A DNA stretch of 64,000 nt from Desulfatitalea sp. BRH_c12 (GTDB taxonomy: Bacteria > Desulfobacterota > Desulfobacteria > Desulfobacterales > Desulfosarcinaceae): contig LADR01000024.1 of assembly GCA_000961655.1 (NCBI GenBank), forward strand, positions 186,001 through 250,000, in the 5' to 3' direction. Both the position numbers and the translations under genes were made by a program. Under the pieces are notes generated by a model. The model was not told the origin of the DNA. It searched no databases and saw only the letters and a program-made list of their open reading frames with translations. Within the stretch, counting starts at the first letter, position 1. The number at the start of each line of letters is the position of its first letter. This document shows positions 3,265 through 46,836 of the stretch, in pieces.

Positions 3265-4757
3265 CCGATCACCCCGTGGCATATATCTTCAACGGCCAGG
3301 TGCTCGACCGCACGGATGTTCCGGTGATGCCCGTCACACGCCTGCGTAGGATGACCATCGATCATGTCAGTGGCGGCGGGTCTATTTCGGCCCTGTTCGC
3401 TGTTCCGCAGGGTGATCGGTTCCGCATGCACACCGTGCTGTGCGATCCCGAGCGCGAGGAACTGGCCGTGTTGGCCGCTGATGTGGACAACGCCTACCCG
3501 GCCTTGACCCCGGATTGCTGGGCAGCCAATTGGTTTGAGCGCGAAATTTTCGAGCAGTGCGGCGTGCGTCCCACGGCCCACCGCTGGCTCAAGCCGCTGC
3601 GGTTTCAACCGCAAGCACACGGCGTGGCCGCTCCCCTTGCGGGGCTGGCCGATTTTTTCAGCATGAAAGGCGAGGAGGTTCATGAGGTCGCCGTTGGGCC
3701 GGTGCATGCCGGCGTGATCGAACCCGGCCATTTTCGTTTTCAATGCCATGGTGAGACGGTCCACCACCTGGAAATTTCTCTGGGGTATCAGCACCGCGGC
3801 GTCGAGCGGGCCCTGATCGGCGGGCCGGACCGGCGCAGCCTGCATTACATGCAGACGCTGGCCGGCGATAGCACCATCGGTCATACAGGCGCTTACTGTG
3901 CGGTGCTGGAGAGCTTGGGCGGTATCCAGATCTCACGTGCAGCCGAAACCATCCGGGCGGTGGCTGCCGAATTGGAACGCATGGCCAACCATATCGGCGA
4001 TCTGGGTGCCATGGCCGGCGATGTGGGTTTTTTGCCGACGCTCAACTACTGCGGTCGCATCCGCGGCGATGTCCTCAACCTGACCGCGCTGCTGTGCGGG
4101 AATCGTTTCGGCAGAGATCTGCTCACACCCGGTGGCGTTCGTTTCGGCTTGGACGATGCGCGCCGCGCCAAGCTGCTGCAGGGGCTGGATGAGGTGGAAA
4201 AGGATCTGCAAAGCGCTGTCCCCCTGATGTTCAATGCGCCTTCAGTGATGGCCCGATTTGAAGGCATTGGTGCACTCACGGCAGATCTGGGGCGCCGGAT
4301 CGGCCTGGTCGGGCCGGCCGGTCGGGCCTGCGGTTTGGGCTATGATGTGCGCAACCGGCTGCCTTATGGCGCGTATCGTTTCGACACCGTGCCGGTGGTC
4401 ACCTATCCCAGTGGCGACTGCTTCGCGCGGGCCTATGTGCGCTGGCTGGAACTGGAGCAGTCGCTGGCTTTCATTCGCCGGCAGCTTTCGGCTTCCGGGT
4501 TGGAAAGCGAAATTCTGAAAGCGTGTCCCGCCTTACAGCCCTGCAGCCTGGTTGTGGTTCTGGCCGAAGGCTGGCGCGGAGAGATATGCCATGTGGCGGC
4601 TACCGATCGGCAGGGGCGATTTGCTTTTTACAAAGTGGTCGATCCATCGTTCCACAACTGGTTCGGCCTGGCGCAAGCCTTGCGGGGTCAGCAGATTTCC
4701 GATTTTCCCCTGTGCAATAAAAGTTTCAATTTGTCTTATTGCGGACATGATTTGTAA
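3261..4757 (+). CDS. hyfG: Hyf large-subunit homologue (NuoC-NuoD fusion) without the Ni-Fe cysteine ligands
   Basis: 498-residue fusion of an N-terminal NuoC-like domain (about 1-125) with a NuoD/hydrogenase large-subunit domain. GTG 3261 overlaps the previous stop by four bases. In HycE/HyfG the active-site nickel is held by a CGxC pair near the start of the large-subunit domain and a DPCxxC pair at the C-terminus. Here the first site reads AGDSTIGHTGAYC (201-213) and the second LCNKSFNLSYCGHDL (484-498); neither pair is present. The rest of the fold is well conserved. It is therefore probably not a hydrogenase but the corresponding subunit of an energy-converting hydrogenase-related (Ehr) complex with an unknown electron partner. 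Confidence 0.85.
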   Translation: MTDHPVAYIFNGQVLDRTDVPVMPVTRLRRMTIDHVSGGGSISALFAVPQGDRFRMHTVLCDPEREELAVLAADVDNAYPALTPDCWAANWFEREIFEQCGVRPTAHRWLKPLRFQPQAHGVAAPLAGLADFFSMKGEEVHEVAVGPVHAGVIEPGHFRFQCHGETVHHLEISLGYQHRGVERALIGGPDRRSLHYMQTLAGDSTIGHTGAYCAVLESLGGIQISRAAETIRAVAAELERMANHIGDLGAMAGDVGFLPTLNYCGRIRGDVLNLTALLCGNRFGRDLLTPGGVRFGLDDARRAKLLQGLDEVEKDLQSAVPLMFNAPSVMARFEGIGALTADLGRRIGLVGPAGRACGLGYDVRNRLPYGAYRFDTVPVVTYPSGDCFARAYVRWLELEQSLAFIRRQLSASGLESEILKACPALQPCSLVVVLAEGWRGEICHVAATDRQGRFAFYKVVDPSFHNWFGLAQALRGQQISDFPLCNKSFNLSYCGHDL

Positions 4758-37692: not shown

Positions 37693-38517
37693 TTATTGTT
37701 TTATTTTAGATTGGCGCAATTGGATGTAGGCATCTCGGAAGGATGCATAGGGATCCAGGGCTGCATCCTTGAGGGATTCATAATCGCCGATGCGAAATGA
37801 GAGCGTGTTGATTTTGTCGTAACCGCTAAGACCCAGCGACAGCTCGAACGGATCGACATACCCAATGGGGTTCAGGAAGCGGTCGCCTCCCATGCCTGCC
37901 GTGTCGCGTAGCGTTGAAGCGCCCAAGATCGGCCACATCAGGAAGAATCCGTCTCCGATACCATAAACCGCCAGGGTTTGGCCCAGGTCTTCCGGACTTA
38001 CGTTGAGTTCGGGATAGCGTGCCGCCGGGTTGCCGAAACCCAGAATGCCGACAGTCGTATTGTAAAGAAAGCGGGTCCACTCCGCTTCGGCTGCCCGGCC
38101 TTTCCCTTGCAGCACATTGTTCACGATCCGGACAGGGGCGCCGAGATTATGGAAAAAATTTCTTACGCCGCTGCGGACCGGGGTGGGGGTGACGAAGCGA
38201 TATCCCTCGGCGACAGGCTTCATGACCCAAAAATAGAGTTTGTCGTTGAAAACGAACATTGCCCGGTTGACGGGCTCCAGGGGATCCGCCACCGTGTAGA
38301 ATGAATTGCCGTTTTCCAATCCGAACGTCTCATCCAGCAGAAGCTCGTCTTCGGCCGACAATTCGTTTTGGGGCGCGTCCGGCACAGGTTGCGCCAGGGC
38401 GGTCGGTGCTGGCGTATTGATGGCACCCGGCTCCGCGGAAGGACGTCCCGAGGCGCATCCAAATGAGACGCACAATCCGCCGACAATGGCCAAGGCCTTT
38501 AGGACTCTGTTTTTCAT
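37693..38517 (-). CDS. mlaA: MlaA-family outer-membrane lipoprotein (VacJ)
   Basis: 274 residues. A lipoprotein signal peptide is seen (lipobox SFGCAS). The MlaA core follows: DPLEPVNRAMFVFNDKLYFWV, FFHNLGAPVRIVNNVLQGK, EDLGQTLAVYGIGDGFFLMWPILGAS and a GYDKINTLSFRIGDYES end. In the Mla pathway MlaA removes misplaced phospholipid from the outer leaflet and passes it to MlaC. mlaC lies 55 bases upstream on the same strand, so both are probably one transcript. mlaBDEF is not present here. Confidence 0.93.
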   Translation of the reverse strand: MKNRVLKALAIVGGLCVSFGCASGRPSAEPGAINTPAPTALAQPVPDAPQNELSAEDELLLDETFGLENGNSFYTVADPLEPVNRAMFVFNDKLYFWVMKPVAEGYRFVTPTPVRSGVRNFFHNLGAPVRIVNNVLQGKGRAAEAEWTRFLYNTTVGILGFGNPAARYPELNVSPEDLGQTLAVYGIGDGFFLMWPILGASTLRDTAGMGGDRFLNPIGYVDPFELSLGLSGYDKINTLSFRIGDYESLKDAALDPYASFRDAYIQLRQSKIKQ

Positions 38518-38572
38518 AATTAATACCGTCTCAGGATGAGGCCAGCCAGCTGGGGTTAAACGGACATGCCAA

Positions 38573-39178
38573 TCAGGCCTTGAGTTTATCTTCCAATCTC
38601 TTGATCAAATGGCTCGGCGGCTCTTTTTGTAAAATGGATTGGAACTGGACCCGATAATTCTGAACGATGCTGACGCCGTTTTCGACCAGAATATCGTAGA
38701 TTTTCCACTCTCCGTCCTCAAGTTTCATACGATAATCGATTGGCATTCCGGCACCCTCGCGGACCAAACGGGTCTGCACCAGGGCCTGGGGTTCCCGGAC
38801 CAGTTCTTTGACATAGACGATTTGTTCGTTGTGATACTCCCCTTGCATTTTGTCGATATAGGAATTTCCCAAGAACCGGGTGAAAATTGCGGTAAAACGC
38901 TCTTTCTCCTCTTCCGTAAATTTTTCCCAGTTTGAACCGACCGTTCGGCGGCTGATCTCCATGAAATCGAACATGGGGCTGGCGATTTCCCAAATTTTGT
39001 CTCTTTGGGCCTCTTTTTTGGCAGGTGCATGGTACTGCGGGTCGTTCAAAACGGTAATGATCTGGTCAATGCGCTCCTTTACGGTCTGCATCGGCGGCCG
39101 CGTTTCCGCCAGAACTGCCGAAAAACCCAGGAGCAGGCTAAACGCCACGATGATCGCTATCCAGCTGGTAACACGCAT
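38573..39178 (-). CDS. mlaC: MlaC/Ttg2D-family periplasmic phospholipid-binding protein
   Basis: 201 residues with a signal peptide (MRVTSWIAIIVAFSLLLGFS, cleaved near VLAE). The MlaC family features VKERIDQIITVLND, FDFMEISRRTVGSNW, ERFTAIFTRFLGNSYIDKM and YRMKLEDGEWKIYDILVENGVS are seen. It ferries phospholipids between MlaA and the inner-membrane MlaFEDB complex. ATG 39178 is chosen for AAGGAATACCTT directly upstream; the frame is open 28 codons further 5'. Confidence 0.92.
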   Translation of the reverse strand: MRVTSWIAIIVAFSLLLGFSAVLAETRPPMQTVKERIDQIITVLNDPQYHAPAKKEAQRDKIWEIASPMFDFMEISRRTVGSNWEKFTEEEKERFTAIFTRFLGNSYIDKMQGEYHNEQIVYVKELVREPQALVQTRLVREGAGMPIDYRMKLEDGEWKIYDILVENGVSIVQNYRVQFQSILQKEPPSHLIKRLEDKLKA

Positions 39179-39560
39179 AAGGTATTCCTTTTCGGTAAGA
39201 GGTCTGGGCGATAGAACTCGCACGGCAGTGATATCTGGTGACGATATGAAGGAAACGCCCAACTATTAGAAATAAAAAATAAAAATTAATATACGGACGT
39301 CAATTGCAAACCTAAATATAGAGAAGAGGCGCAAGCGTGTCAAGCGGCGTGGTTCGGCAGCCTTTCGGCAGCCGGAGGGACCCGTCTCCGTATAGCGGTG
39401 CGGTGTGCGGAAAATTTATTCTTTATGTAAAACTTTATTCTCATATTATAGGTAGCTGAGTACCTATCCATGACCCAGTCGCTGGCGTGTCCTTTGAATA
39501 AAGAGATATTTTTATAATTAAAACGTTTGTTTATGTGAAAGGCGTGTTTCCCGGTGAGTA

Positions 39561-39575
39561 TGGCATCAACATTGC
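39561..39575 (+). promoter_or_regulatory. Sigma-54 (-24/-12) promoter of the riboswitch-diguanylate cyclase unit
   Basis: TGGCAT (39561-39566) and TTGC (39572-39575), GG and GC separated by exactly 10 bases. Transcription would start about 12 bases downstream, near 39587, which is the predicted first base of the riboswitch. The near-perfect placement supports it. A sigma-54 activator gene is encoded at 42.0-43.5 kb. Confidence 0.75.
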
Positions 39576-39585
39576 GTAAAATAAG

Positions 39586-39680
39586 GACAATTACACGAAA
39601 AAGCCAAACTTCGGGTAACCGAAGGACGGAAAGCTTCGGGTCCACACGTTTGTGGATAGCCGGGCCGCCTGGAAGTAATG
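39586..39680 (+). ncRNA. Cyclic di-GMP-I (GEMM-I) riboswitch
   Basis: All main GEMM-I parts can be read. P1 pairs ATTAC (39590-39594) with GTAAT (39675-39679). P2 is CTTCGG / CCGAAG (39609-39614 / 39619-39624) closed by a GTAA (GNRA) tetraloop. The conserved core GCCAAAC precedes P2, and GGACGGAAAGC follows it. P3 contains TCCACA / TGTGGA (39641-39646 / 39651-39656) and is closed by AGCCGGGCCGCC. The base equal to Vc2 G20 appears to be G, and a C-G pair replaces G21-C46, so c-di-GMP rather than cAMP-GMP is expected. It is followed by a terminator and a diguanylate cyclase gene. Confidence 0.88.
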
Positions 39681-39683
39681 GAG

Positions 39684-39714
39684 ACCGGGTTGCCTGGCGG
39701 CAAACCGGTTTTTT
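39684..39714 (+). terminator. Riboswitch expression-platform terminator
   Basis: Stem ACCGGGTTGCC (39684-39694) / GGCAAACCGGT (39699-39709), 10 of 11 pairs, with a 4-base loop and a T run (39709-39714). A competing partner GGCAACC (39724-39730) could pair with GGTTGCC inside the 5' arm. Together with the aptamer this suggests ligand-dependent transcription termination upstream of the cyclase gene; the sign of the response is not determined. Confidence 0.78.
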
Positions 39715-39786
39715 GTTGCGCCCGGCAACCCTATGACTGTGAAAGCGGAGTCCGCGTACGGTTCGGCAGCAATCAGGGGATGATTG

Positions 39787-42021
39787 ATGACATTGTTCGA
39801 TCCTGACATCAGTGATGAAGACTTTTCCAGAGAGCATCTGTCCTTGCTGGACTTGATCCCGATTGATGATCTGCAGCAGCTTCAGGATGCTTTGGCGGAA
39901 ATGGGGCATGTGAAGTCGGTGATCAGTGATGCCGCTGGCAATCCCCTGACCATGCCGAGCAATGAAATACCCATCTGCCGGGTGGTTCAGCAAAGCATAC
40001 GCGGTTCGCAAGAGTGCCTGCATCGGCAGCGCTGCCTGTCGGCAGGCATGAGGCGTGACCAGCGGCACCAGGTGCATCGATGCGAAAGTCTGGGGATTGT
40101 GAAAGCGGCGGTCCCGATCGTGGTCAACAATGTCCATCTGGCCAACTGGTGGATCAGCCAGTATTGTGCGGAGCTGTCTGATTCAGAGCGGATTGCGGCC
40201 TATGCCGATCATATCGGTATTGCGAGTGACACGCTGCTGGGCGCCGCCCAACAGTCCGTGCGGGGCTGCCGCGCGGATTTCGAAAAAGTGCTGGCCTGGA
40301 TCGATCACCTGGCGCATAAACTTACCGGGCTGGGATATCGGATTTTGATGCTTTCAAAAAATATTTCGAAGCTGCATCGTCTTGAGAGCGAGTTGGGCCA
40401 CTATCGATCCGAGCTGGAAGCCCTGGTGCAGGAACGCACGGCCGATTTGATCAGCGTCAACAAACGGCTGCAATTGGAGGTGTTGGAGCGCGATTGGGTC
40501 GAAGAGCAGATTTCGCGCAAATCCAAACTGCTGAATGCCATCAACCAAGTGCTGCATCAGATAGTCTCCGATCGCAGCGACCCCTCCCTGGCGCGGACTT
40601 GTTTGCTCGCCGGCCTGTCCCTGACAGGCAGTAGCCTGGGGTTCATGGTTGAATGCCGGGAGGGGCAATGGCGCGTGCTGGCTGCGTTGCATCAGAATGA
40701 AGCGGGGGCATCGATTGAGGCCGCGTTGCCTCCCGATATGACTTTCGATCCCTGCGGGATCTGGGCGCATTTGGTGCGGGAGGGCTCGCCAGTGATCATC
40801 CAACCCAATGATAGCCATCGCCTGTGGGGTGCTCTGCCCAAGGGCTGTCCTACGCTCAAGACGCTTCTGGCGGTTCCGATGCCCATACGGACGGGCCTGG
40901 CAGGGTTCATCGCCCTGGCCAACAACCCTTCAGGCTACGCCTTGGTCGACCGGACCGATCTGGAGGCCCTGATCCAAGCCTTTACGGAAACCTTGCTGCG
41001 CAAGCGCGCCGAGCGCGCCAAACATCACAGTGAAAAACGTTTGAACCTGGCTCTGGACTCCGCAGAAGAAGGGTTGTGGGACTACTTGCCACAAAAAGGA
41101 GAGATTTACTTTAGTCCGCGCTGGTTCAGCATGCTCGGCTACACCCATGGTGAATTGCCGTCCACGCTGGAAACCTGGACGACGCTGACCCATCCAGACG
41201 ATCTGTCCACCTTGAAAATGATTTTTGAAAAGGTGCTCAAATCCGATGAAGCGTCTTTCGGCATCGAGATCCGGATGCTCTCGCAGGCAGGACAATGGCA
41301 CTGGATCCAAACACGCGGGCGCACCGTGGAAAGGGATATCGATGGCAATGTGTTGCGAGTGGTTGGCACCTTGATCGATATCAGCAAGTACAAGAAAGTC
41401 GAGATGGCCCTGCAAAAGGCGAATGAGGAGTTACAGCGCCTGGCCGCCCTGGACGACCTGACCCAAATTGCCAACCGGCGTCGTTTCGACGAGCGCTTGA
41501 CTGACGAATGGCGACGTGCCCGGCGAGACCGCACGCGACTGGGCGTCATCTTGTGCGATATCGACTTTTTCAAACGTTACAACGACACCTACGGTCATGT
41601 GAAGGGAGATGAGACCCTGTTCGCCGTGGCTCAGGCAATCAGCACGGTGCTCAAGCGGCCCATGGATCTCGTCGCACGGTATGGAGGCGAAGAGTTCGCT
41701 GTGGTGCTCCCCAATACCGACATTGACGGCGTCAGCCGGGTGGCCGTTGAAATCAAAGCCGCGGTCGAAGCGCTGCGCATACCGCATCAAGCCTCCACGG
41801 TCGGCCCCTCGATCAGCCTGAGCTTCGGCGTCGCGGCCCTCGTCCCCGAAGATAAAAGGTCTGCCAAAATCCTGGTGGAGCGCGCCGATAAAGCCTTGTA
41901 CAGAGCCAAGGCCCTCGGCCGCAACCAGATCGTGCAGGACAAGCCAACCGTTTTTGCCCCACCGGCACCCAGGAAAACCGAAAGTGCGGCCGCCCTGGCC
42001 GCTGAAAGAAATGCGATCTGA
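39787..42021 (+). CDS. PocR-GAF-PAS-GGDEF sensor diguanylate cyclase
   Basis: 744 residues, cytoplasmic. Domains: PocR-type ligand domain (about 20-190, conserved Cys residues in the [16 protein letters not shown] region), coiled coil (about 195-245), GAF-like (about 250-415), PAS (about 425-545) and GGDEF (about 555-720). The active motif is GGEEF at 633-637, with canonical [10 protein letters not shown] substrate residues (no Hypr-type Ser). An RxxD inhibitory site RPMD sits at 624-627. So it should make c-di-GMP and be product-inhibited. ATG 39787 follows AGGGGATGATTG. It lies behind a -24/-12 promoter, c-di-GMP riboswitch and terminator, suggesting feedback by its own product. Confidence 0.93.
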
Positions 42022-42035
42022 AAATCTAACAAAAC

Positions 42036-43475
42036 TCAAGCACTCCCGGAATGAATTTCCATGCAGAGCTGTTTCATTTTGCGGTAAAGCAGCGTGCGAT
42101 GGATGCCGAGCATTTTGGCTGCTTGCGCCTTGTTGTTGCCGGAGCTCTTGAGGGCGGCCTGGATGGCTCTGATTTCGGCATCGTTGACGGACTTCTTCAA
42201 GGTGGCCGCGGTTGAAACATTGGAGGAAAGCTTTTTTGCGAACAGTTGATGCGGCAGGTCGTGGGGAAAGATTGTCGGTCCCTCCAGGGTTGCCATGGTT
42301 CTCTGCAGGGTGTGCTTCAGTTCGCGGCTGTTGCCCGGCCATGGGTAGGCCTTCAAGATCGTGATCGTTTCCGGGTCCAGCATCGGAACCGGCGCGTTCC
42401 ACTCCTCGGCCAAATCCTTCAGAAAGTAGCAGGCTTGGGGCAGTATATCTTCCGCTCGTTCACGCAGCGGCGGAATGTGCAGATTGAAGACATTCAGGCG
42501 ATAGTAAAGGTCTGGGCGGAAGCGGTTGTCTGCGACCATGGCTTCCAGGTTGCGGTTGGTGGCCGCGATCAATCTGAAATCGGACTTGATGGTCTTGGTG
42601 CCCCCCACCATTTCGAATTCTTTTTCTTCCAGAACCCGCAGCAGCTTGGGCTGCATGCTTTCCGGCAGGTCGCCGATTTCATCGAGAAACAGCGTTCCTT
42701 GATGGGCCATGTGGATCTTGCCCTGTTTACCGCTCGAAAGGGCCCCGGTAAAGGCGCCTTTTTCATATCCGAACAGTTCCGATTCCAAAAGGTCGGCGGG
42801 AATAGCGGAAGCATTGATTCTCACGAAAGGCTTGAGTCGACGCGTGCTGACATGATGGATCGCCTGCGCATAAAGCTCTTTGCCGCACCCGGACTCTCCC
42901 GTGATCAAAACCGTCAGATCGTGGGCGGCTGCGTGGTAGACAAGTTTCTTGAGTTGGGACTGTGTTTTGCTTGCGCCGATGATGCTGTCCACCGTGTAGC
43001 GCGTTTTTCGCAGGGATCGGAGCTCTTTCTCATAGATTTCGACTTTGGTTTCGAGAAATTTGAGTTTGTCGGCCAGTTTATGGACATCCTGGATGCATTC
43101 GAACATGACCAACCCGAAAACGGCCAGCACCCGGCCGTCCTTGAAGATGGGGATACGCTGCACGACGATGTTCTGTCCGCGTATTACCATGGTATCATTG
43201 ATTTCCGCTTTGCCTGTCTTGGCAACGATATGCATGCGGGAGGTTTCAATCACCTGGGTGGATTGTCGCCCGACCTGGGCCCCGGGATCGAGTCCCAGAA
43301 ATCGTCCATAGGGTTGGTTCATGAACACCACCCGGCCTTCAGGGTCGGTGATCATCACGCCGTTCGGGAAATGGTTTAAAAAGAGGGCAATGGCCGCCGG
43401 ATCCTGAAATAACTGAGCAAGCGTATGATCGGCTGTCTGCCGGGGGGTTCCTTCATCATGGGCGCTTTCGGTCAT
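42036..43475 (-). CDS. Sigma-54-dependent transcriptional activator (PAS, AAA+, Fis-type HTH)
   Basis: 479 residues. An N-terminal PAS domain (about 25-130, [18 protein letters not shown]), then an AAA+ domain with Walker A GESGCGKE, the sigma-54-contact loop GAFTGA, Walker [10 protein letters not shown] and the [11 protein letters not shown] region. The C-terminal HTH is of Fis type ([20 protein letters not shown]). It opens sigma-54 promoters after a signal, sensed here by PAS, with no receiver domain. Three candidate -24/-12 elements lie near it (39561, 44627 and 44658), so its targets are probably neighbours. Its convergent mate is the diguanylate cyclase. Confidence 0.93.
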
Positions 43476-44657: not shown

Positions 44658-44672
44658 TGGCACTGGTTTTGC
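44658..44672 (+). promoter_or_regulatory. Sigma-54 promoter of the CoA-transferase gene
   Basis: TGGCAC (44658-44663), N5, TTGC (44669-44672): full agreement with the -24/-12 consensus, GG and GC 10 bases apart. Transcription would start near 44684, about 110 bases before the CoA-transferase ATG. A PAS-type sigma-54 activator is encoded less than 1.2 kb away. Confidence 0.82.
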
Positions 44673-44796
44673 GTTACTCTTTTGCTTTACGAGGCACGAA
44701 TAGGGCCAAAAATTTTACACCCTACGGGTGCACGCGAGACAATCCTCACGTGGAGGTTGGCGTCCAATCGAAACGTTGTATTTCTAAGGAGATTAT

Positions 44797-46836
44797 ATGA
44801 GTGCAGAAAAACAGAAGAAACAACCTGGATTGACCCATCCCTTGTTGAAAGACATGACCGGCCGAACAGCCCGCAAAAGCAAAGTTGCCTCGGGTGAAGA
44901 AGCGGTTGGGCTGATCCTCGATGGTGATACCGTCGCAACGAGCGGATTCGTGGGCACCGGCTTTCCCGAGCACCTGGCCGTGTGCCTGGAAGAACGGTTT
45001 CTCGCAAGCGGCACACCGCGCAATCTTACTTTGGTGTATGCGGCCGGGCAGGGGGATGGCAAGGAGCGCGGCTTGAACCATTGGGGACACGATGGCATGG
45101 TCAAACGCGTGATTGGCGGCCACTGGGGGCTGGTTCCAAAGCTGCAGCGATTGGCCGTCGACAATCATATCGAAGCCTACAACTTTCCACAGGGAGTGAT
45201 TTCGCACCTGTACCGGGATATTGCGGCCGGCAAGCCTGGAACGATCACCCATGTGGGGCTCGGCACTTTCGCGGACCCAGCATTCGGCGGCGGCAAATTG
45301 AATGCGATGACTTCCGAAGAACTGGTGGAGCGGGTCTCTCTGGCAGGTCGGGAATGGTTGTTATACAAGGCATTTCCAATCAATGTGGCGATCCTGCGGG
45401 GAACCACGGCCGACCTGGACGGCAATATCACCATGGAAAAGGAGGCGCTGGTACTGGATGCCCTGGCGATGGCTTCAGCCGCTAAGAATTCAGGCGGGTT
45501 CGTCATCGTGCAGGTGGAACGTATCGCGGATCATGGCGCATTGCGGGCGCGGGATGTGATTGTCCCCGGCATCCTGGTGGATTGCGTTGTGGTATCCGAG
45601 CCCGAGCGGCATTGGCAGACTTTCGGGACACGCTACAATCCGGCCTTCAGCGCAGAAATACGGGTGCCGCTGCAGTCTTTGCCGCCCATGGGGATGAGCG
45701 AACGTAAGATCATCGCGCGGCGGGCGGCTTTTGAGCTGCGTGCCAACGATATTGTCAATCTGGGCATCGGCATGCCCGAAGGCATTGCCGAAGTGGCCAA
45801 TGAAGAACGGATCATGGACCTGCTGACCATGACCGCCGAGCCGGGTATCATCGGGGGCATCCCCGCCGGAGGCCTCGATTTCGGGGCCGGCACCAATATC
45901 ACCAGTCTGATCTCCCAGAATGCACAATTCGATTTCTACGATGGCGGCGGCTTGGATGTGGCCTTTCTCGGATTGGCCCAGGCCGATAAAGATGGCAACC
46001 TCAACGTGAGCAAGTTCGGCCCGCGGCTGGCCGGTGCCGGCGGATTCATCAACATCAGCCAGAATGCCAAAAAAGTCGTTTTCGTGGGCACCTTTACGGC
46101 TGGCGGACTGGCCATCGATATCTTGGACGGCAATTTGCGCATTCTTGCGGAAGGCAAAGTGCGCAAGTTTGTCGATCAGGTGGAGCACCGCACCTATAGT
46201 GGGCGCTATGCCATGAGCAAAGGACAGTCCGCGCTGTATATCACAGAACGCTGTGTTTTCCGGTTGACTGACAAAGGCCTTGAACTGATCGAAATTGCAC
46301 CGGGTGTGGACCTTCAGCAAGATATCCTGGCGCATATGGATTTTGAACCGATCCTGCCGAACCATCTCTGTACGATGGATGCACGGATCTTTCAGCCTGA
46401 ACTCATGGACCTGCGCACGGAAATGGTGGTCGTTCCGCTGTCCAGCCGTGTGAGCTACGATTCGGAAGCAAATCAATTCTTCGTTAATTTTGAGGCCTTA
46501 TCCGTGGCCCATCGGCAGGATATCCAGCAGATCCGCACGACCATCGAGGATATGCTGCGGCCGCTTGGCAAAAAGGTTAATACCATTGTGAATTACGACA
46601 ATTTTTTCATCAGTCCGGACCTCGAAGAGGAATACACTGCGCTGGTCAAATACCTGATGGACCATTATTATGAGAATGTCACCCGATTCACCACCAGCGC
46701 ATTTCTGCGCATGAAACTCGGCGAAGCCCTCCAAAAAAGAAAAGTTTCCCCGCACATCTACGAAACCCACAAGGAGGCGCAAAAGGCATTGAAATGCACA
46801 CTGGCCGGGGAGACATCCGGTGTGTCGGAGATGTAG
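44797..46836 (+). CDS. Family I CoA-transferase (YdiF/propionate CoA-transferase-like, fused alpha and beta) with C-terminal extension
   Basis: 679 residues. The alpha part (about 25-285) has [18 protein letters not shown] and the beta part (about 305-520) has [14 protein letters not shown] and [20 protein letters not shown], which carries the expected catalytic Glu. A further 140 residues (about 535-675) form a predicted alpha/beta region ([21 protein letters not shown], then [23 protein letters not shown]) that I do not assign to a catalytic domain. It transfers CoA between carboxylates such as acetate, propionate or acetoacetate. AAGGAG lies 8 bases before ATG. It is under a consensus sigma-54 promoter, so expression is probably substrate-induced. 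Confidence 0.88.

Follow-up and report, generated by a model that had tools for sequence, protein, structure and literature searches.

A diguanylate cyclase gene of Desulfatitalea sp. BRH_c12 is preceded by a sigma-54 promoter element, a GEMM-I (c-di-GMP-I) riboswitch aptamer and an intrinsic terminator, and this aptamer-cyclase unit is conserved across one genus. The gene lies in a window of 64,000 nucleotides (nt), which corresponds to positions 186001-250000 of contig C26 in genome G000 (6.0 Mb). The whole arrangement is read here, with a probability of about 0.72, as a product-limited source of cyclic di-GMP (c-di-GMP), in which sigma-54-dependent entry and an OFF riboswitch would control a canonical cyclase. 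RNA polymerase with sigma-54 and an enhancer-binding activator would start the transcript about 7 nt before the aptamer. At low c-di-GMP, an aptamer strand designated strand A would pair with the 5' arm of the terminator, designated strand T, so that the terminator would be blocked and the cyclase would be made. At high c-di-GMP, the ligand would keep strand A in the aptamer, strand T would join the 3' arm of the terminator, and transcription would stop. An RxxD site in the protein would add product inhibition at the enzyme level. Product control at two levels behind sigma-54 entry had been proposed in an initial annotation of this DNA, and it is still the best reading of the anatomy of this conserved unit; the switching scheme of that annotation was wrong in detail, and the likely antiterminator is the predicted A:T helix instead of a pairing with 39724-39730. 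The coordinates of the features are summarized in Table 1.

Orthologues of the cyclase were searched in 31 genomes including its own with the threshold E <= 1e-60, and matches were found in 15 of them, own included. A match to the c-di-GMP-I clan was found upstream of the orthologous cyclase in all 13 loci with upstream sequence (L034-L046; L034 is from the own genome). The E-values of 12 of these matches were between 3e-13 and 8.6e-6, and the thirteenth (L041) scored 61.8 bits. Two loci were left out of the 13: L047 is cut before the gene start, and in the 3,987 nt of L048, which has only a partial cyclase match, c-di-GMP-I was not detected. RF03167 was the best family in 12 of the 13 loci, with a score over the cut-off in five (L034, L035, L040, L041, and L043), while L046 was closest to RF03168, below the cut-off. 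Eleven leaders from the genus (the own leader and those of G001-G010) were aligned. The helices P2 and P3 pair in 98.5% of the cells of this alignment, with four doubly changed pairs in all. The covariation score of aptamer plus terminator exceeds all 500 of 500 shuffles, which is supportive only, as the sequences are related. The combination of aptamer and cyclase is also present in two genomes of a second genus, g3 (L044 and L045), whose cyclases are 39% and 37% identical to that of the window.

The aptamer was placed at 39586-39680 in the initial annotation, and the covariance models of Rfam locate it within this range. RF01051 (c-di-GMP-I), the model proposed there for checking the call, gives 65.6 bits against a cut-off of 35, and RF03167 (c-di-GMP-I-GGC) gives 62.4 bits against a cut-off of 59 with the E-value 2.5e-12 for the window. 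The lowest Rfam E-value thus belongs to RF03167, an orphan variant. The call of GEMM-I was right; the filing of the RNA under this variant and the absence of its defining residue had gone unnoticed. Residues are numbered here by what we take to be the numbering of the V. cholerae Vc2 RNA, mapped onto the model alignment. At positions 20, 47, and 92, the Rfam consensus lines read G/G/C for RF03167, U/A/U for RF03168, and G/A/C for RF01051, and the window RNA has G/A/C, as in the canonical c-di-GMP-I consensus. A47 is present in the window and in all 11 genus leaders, and G47, read as diagnostic of RF03167 from its name and consensus line, is absent. The assignment to the orphan c-di-GMP-I-GGC group was rejected on this residue. 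The P2 loop is GUAA, of the GNRA type, as in RF01051. Judged by these residues, the ligand pocket fits the canonical c-di-GMP-I type.

The RNA might instead sense another cyclic dinucleotide, either cyclic GMP-AMP (cGAMP) or the ligand of the c-di-GMP-I-GGC group, and the leader would then mediate cross-talk of two signals, not product feedback. Besides the E-value of RF03167, the lower part of P2 speaks for this, where the pair C21-G46 replaces the usual G21-C46 throughout the 11 genus leaders; both affinity and selectivity can shift with point changes in this part of the helix (PMC9262584). The own genome has 15 GGDEF matches, and both motifs were detected in 10 of them, of which nine carry Asp at the base-selecting position. 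In the protein L231 (G000:C86:76515-76988), which has GHLNGS and YGGDEF, Ser replaces the base-selecting Asp, and an RxxD motif was not seen. Ser together with the GGDEF motif is the published signature of GMP-AMP cyclases, and because L231 carries it, cGAMP may exist in this cell, which counts against simple product feedback. On the other side, G20, A47, and C92 match the canonical consensus, and the GGC group needs G47. The cGAMP riboswitches of the GEMM-Ib type carry A at position 20, whereas the window and all 11 leaders have G20. A key nucleotide of the pocket is changed in cGAMP riboswitches (PMC9481103). Sensing of another dinucleotide is thus considered unlikely, although it keeps some weight, and c-di-GMP is taken as the probable ligand.

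The terminator, drawn at 39684-39714 in the initial annotation, was recovered with a stem paired in 98.3% of the cells of the 11 leaders. One of 200 shuffles folds as well as this hairpin. The weight of the call rests on conservation; a simple terminator scan was not above chance (four found, 3.4 expected). When the own leader is folded up to, but without, the 3' arm of the terminator, the predicted structure includes the helix between strands A and T. The A:T hairpin alone has a folding energy of -24.1 kcal/mol (z -3.09). In the pre-terminator folds, all 13 A:T pairs are formed in five of the 11 leaders (own, G001, G006, G009, and G010), 12 in G007, eight in G002 and G008, and six in G005. 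A shared-strand antiterminator resembling that of Cd1, the riboswitch of the C. difficile flagellar operon, is therefore predicted in the own leader and, whole or in part, in nine of the 11. Across the leaders 93% of the cells of the A:T helix are pairable, versus at most 54.8% when it is slid. Strand A contains C92 and the 3' sides of both P3 and P1, and therefore the antiterminator would destroy the ligand pocket. It is likely from these folds that the antiterminator is the A:T helix. An antiterminator built from the 3' strand of the aptamer implies an OFF switch, and negative feedback by c-di-GMP is likely by the same modelling. Cd1, a demonstrated OFF switch, follows the same strand logic (PMC9262584). 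In eight of the 11 leaders the terminator is the more stable state of the finished fold, by 0.6 to 8.3 kcal/mol, and therefore the antiterminator would need to act kinetically, before the 3' arm of the terminator exists.

The pairing partner proposed earlier, 39724-39730, begins 10 nt past the U-tract, and it cannot decide termination because it is transcribed only after that point. None of the 10 other genus leaders has its sequence, GGCAACC, within the 80 nt that follow the U-tract, where the longest Watson-Crick complementarity with the terminator arm spans 4-6 nt. The folding of the segment 39715-39790 does not stand out from that of shuffles (z -0.49), which also bears against this partner, and it was rejected.

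The opposite direction, an ON switch in which c-di-GMP would favour read-through and the cyclase would be under positive feedback, was also considered. A related aptamer, the cGAMP riboswitch of Geobacter pilM, works as an ON switch (PMC9262584). The two states of the own leader are nearly isoenergetic (-50.8 kcal/mol for the terminator state and -51.9 for the antiterminator state, 1.1 kcal/mol apart), so energy alone leaves the direction unfixed. However, the terminator contains no aptamer strand, and ligand binding would not directly break it; the helix predicted to compete best with the terminator uses up the 3' strand of the aptamer itself, and the ligand should prevent that helix. We regard an ON switch as improbable and prefer the OFF switch.

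The promoter element TGGCATCAACATTGCG, given as 39561-39575 in the initial annotation, is one of two exact matches to TGGCAY-N5-TTGC found on both strands of the window. The GG and GC elements stand at the correct spacing, and none of the 11 genus leaders departs from the letters T,G,G,C and T,T,G. The full pattern is present in eight of them, and of the others, two have TTGA and one has TGGCG. The own genome includes a sigma-54 gene. If one mismatch is allowed, the window has 23 matches against a shuffle mean of 14.7, and four of 100 shuffles reach 23. This number is only mildly above chance, so the weight of the call rests on conservation. The frequency of such sites leaves a very small chance that the match is accidental and that the leader is read from another promoter; but the core is invariant, no sigma-70-type site was detected on the cyclase strand when 39300-42400 was scanned, and all three GEMM-I leaders found in the own genome carry a sigma-54 site. 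A sigma-54 promoter is therefore retained. The transcript had been proposed to start at the first base of the aptamer. The start predicted from the promoter is close to that place, and the Rfam aptamer begins 6-8 nt further downstream.

The activator of this promoter was sought in two ways. A weak candidate binding site, an inverted repeat, starts 113 nt before the -24 element. A similar repeat is present at -112 in G008, none is found at the matching place in most other leaders, and a common activator-site motif sought in the leaders was not found. A sigma-54 activator with PAS-AAA-Fis architecture is encoded at 42036-43475, and its role as the cyclase activator is unsupported: its best matches in G001, G003, and G008 are on contigs other than that of the cyclase. 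Near this gene, a second strong sigma-54 site (44658-44673, + strand) is located 139 nt before a CoA-transferase gene at 44797, so the activator likelier serves the CoA-transferase cluster.

The protein shows domain matches to PocR, GAF_2, PAS_3, and GGDEF. The GGEEF and RxxD motifs named in the initial annotation are found at residues 634-638 and, as RPMD, at 625-628, and the base-selecting residue is Asp609. GGEEF, RP[MT]D, and this Asp are kept in all 12 orthologues that reach them (of 13; L046 is cut), and the RxxD motif reads RPTD in genus g3. An Asp at this position confers specificity for GTP (PMC6456294). The Hypr GGDEF proteins, which are cGAMP synthases, have Ser or Thr instead of this Asp together with GGDEF; the cyclase has GHVKGD and GGEEF. 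By its residues, the enzyme is expected to be a canonical diguanylate cyclase. PleD-type diguanylate cyclases are product-inhibited through RxxD. The window cyclase likewise has RxxD before GGEEF, and product inhibition is predicted for it from the motif.

Several observations, in addition to L231, weigh against the proposed mechanism. P1 pairs in 68% of the cells of the 11 leaders and is poorly formed in the own sequence (marked NC in the covariance alignment), and when the aptamer is folded alone, P3 and P1 are not in the best structure and z is only -1.95. The four doubly changed pairs are not exceptional, as 56 of 500 shuffles of aptamer plus terminator reach this number. Covariation in the A:T helix does not exceed that of shuffles (217 of 500 are as high); both of its strands also take part in other helices. 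None of the 13 A:T pairs is formed in the pre-terminator folds of G003 and G004. The terminator state is the more stable one in G003 (by 8.3 kcal/mol), G005 (5.0), and G009 and G010 (4.1-4.3), while the balance is reversed by 11 kcal/mol, away from the terminator, in G004, whose aptamer is poorly matched (42.8 bits to RF03168 against a cut-off of 65.9). The -12 element reads TTGA instead of TTGC in G003 and G005. In genus g3, the leaders L044 and L045 have no U-tract of the same kind, and the promoter-like sequence TGGCATCAAAATTGTA is located 172 and 185 nt before the aptamer.

Table 1. Features of the cyclase leader and gene (positions in the window).
Feature	Position	Strand	Remarks
Candidate activator-binding site, inverted repeat ATAGGTA-N6-TACCTAT	39448-39467	not assigned	weak
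Sigma-54 -24/-12 element	39561-39576	+	score 14.2 of 14.7
Predicted transcription start	39586-39588	+	from -12 to +1 spacing
c-di-GMP-I (GEMM-I) aptamer	39594-39673	+	Rfam covariance matches; G20=39603, C21=39604, G46=39629, A47=39630, C92=39668
Strand A (3' strand of P3, C92, 3' side of P1)	39659-39672	+	predicted to pair with strand T in the antiterminator
Intrinsic terminator hairpin and U-tract	39681-39714	+	stem 39681-39712; six-T U-tract 39709-39714; -19.2 kcal/mol, z -3.96
Strand T (terminator 5' arm; common to antiterminator and terminator)	39685-39698	+	predicted by folding and leader alignment
Ribosome-binding site AGGGGA	39775-39780	+	read from sequence
Diguanylate cyclase PocR-GAF-PAS-GGDEF	39784-42021	+	745 amino acids from TTG 39784; ATG 39787 likelier

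The association of sigma-54 sites with GEMM-I was surveyed at 113 GEMM-I loci, taken from the own genome and from related genomes within the order. The 100 nt before each GEMM-I match were scored against the -24/-12 consensus with in-house weights (maximum 14.7), and a score of at least 13 was taken as a site; dinucleotide shuffles and the reverse strand served as controls, together with a single 64-kb window. Sites were found at 40 of the 113 loci, many of which are orthologues or paralogues of one another and not independent events, versus seven of 2,260 shuffles and none of 113 on the reverse strand. When binned, 34 of the 40 sites start 41-65 nt before the aptamer. The proportion falls as kinship becomes more distant, from 19 of 22 loci in the own genus to 16 of 47 in other genera of the family and five of 44 in other families of the order. 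The site is missing at 73 of the 113 loci, and it is the exception outside the family. In a phylum-wide draw of 99 genomes, 44 had a GEMM-I match, and a site was present at seven of the 29 loci listed (one per genome, own genome aside). In the window, two of 39 long genes have a sigma-54 site within 300 nt upstream, and the cyclase is one of them. Sigma-54 sites before GEMM-I aptamers are thus far commoner than chance. The initial annotation is upheld as to this combination at the cyclase; its recurrence across the clade had not been seen.

The downstream frame was defined as the longest one starting within 450 nt, and many frames are cut at about 1.5 kb. Among the 110 such frames, 31 match fn3, 16 PKD_4, and five each PEP-CTERM, MlaD, and MlaC, so the GEMM-I targets are largely secreted and envelope proteins. 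MlaC/MlaD were tested in five suspected loci and were not carried. GGDEF is outside the 25 commonest downstream families; a cyclase target cannot be called rare, because the cut frames would hide a C-terminal GGDEF domain. In the window, an MlaA/MlaC pair is encoded at 37693-39262 on the - strand, divergent to the cyclase. With the chances about evenly balanced, c-di-GMP-I riboswitches in this clade would commonly be a second gate behind activator-dependent sigma-54 promoters, with the cyclic dinucleotide deciding the completion or translation of the transcript. The regulon would include many large secreted fibronectin/PKD-type proteins and one self-limiting cyclase feeding the same pool, and the sigma-54 input would govern the signal source together with the riboswitch outputs.

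The other two GEMM-I leaders of the own genome have no U-tract by eye (L001, about 1584-1650; L003, just after the aptamer). Their inverted repeats would cover the ribosome-binding site (GACATCTC or GACATCCC / GGGAGATGTC-ATG), which suggests translational control. Six tandem c-di-GMP-I-type matches were observed within about 520 nt of L031 (691-1207, + strand; 53.5-66.4 bits, four of six below the RF03167 cut-off); a second scan gives five aptamers, the sixth overlapping one of them. The genome stretch of L070 has four c-di-GMP-I-type matches. Doublets and triplets of c-di-GMP-I are known from a survey of riboswitches (PMC9481103). Upstream of the six aptamers of L031, a sub-threshold group II intron match is present at 207-282 (38.9 bits, cut-off 40). 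Group II intron domains are also matched in L048 at 3694-3982 on the - strand (RF02001, 124.5 bits; RF01998, 54.4 bits), the other strand than the partial cyclase match. In the window, a resemblance to domain V of a group II intron (its 3' half) was noticed by eye at 39733-39766, just past the terminator, and it was rejected, as there is no Rfam match with E <= 5 in 39300-39900.

Both OFF and ON expression platforms are known for GEMM-I (PMC9262584). The closest parallel to the window leader is Cd1, with a c-di-GMP-I aptamer, a terminator, and an antiterminator that takes the aptamer-stabilising strand together with the ligand-contacting C (PMC9262584). Cd1 controls flagella and not a cyclase, and the account of Cd1 available from the same source does not mention a sigma-54 element (PMC9262584). 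The cGAMP GEMM-Ib riboswitches of Geobacter, pilM among them, have the same aptamer fold, come from a related bacterial group, and are terminator-based; pilM is an ON switch for cGAMP, whereas the window leader combines G20/A47/C92 with OFF anatomy. The c-di-GMP-I-GGC group is similar in its lowest E-value and a score over the cut-off, and differs in that the window has A47 for the diagnostic G47. GEMM-I upstream of genes for c-di-GMP production and breakdown is known in general, and such cases share with the window a riboswitch ahead of a ligand-making gene (PMC7266159). In comparison with these pairs, the window shows a predicted sigma-54 start at the aptamer and a conserved PocR-GAF-PAS-GGDEF target. 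Desulfobacteria have the largest reported numbers of sigma-54 activator genes (PMC12316311), and sigma-54 has been linked to the cell exterior (PMC3162934). The word riboswitch is absent from the main text of the G. sulfurreducens RpoN regulon paper (PMC2725144). A literature search, with thin coverage of subscription journals, found no description of sigma-54 promoters before GEMM-I RNAs.

Discussions of feedback on c-di-GMP synthesis usually centre on the enzyme. Here c-di-GMP would act on the mRNA as well, behind a promoter that stays silent unless its activator is present, and the control of a second-messenger set point becomes testable in one short leader. If the pairing of sigma-54 with GEMM-I is real, two regulatory layers for cell-surface genes would have evolved together in this clade, and the pairing would provide a simple rule to predict its c-di-GMP regulon.

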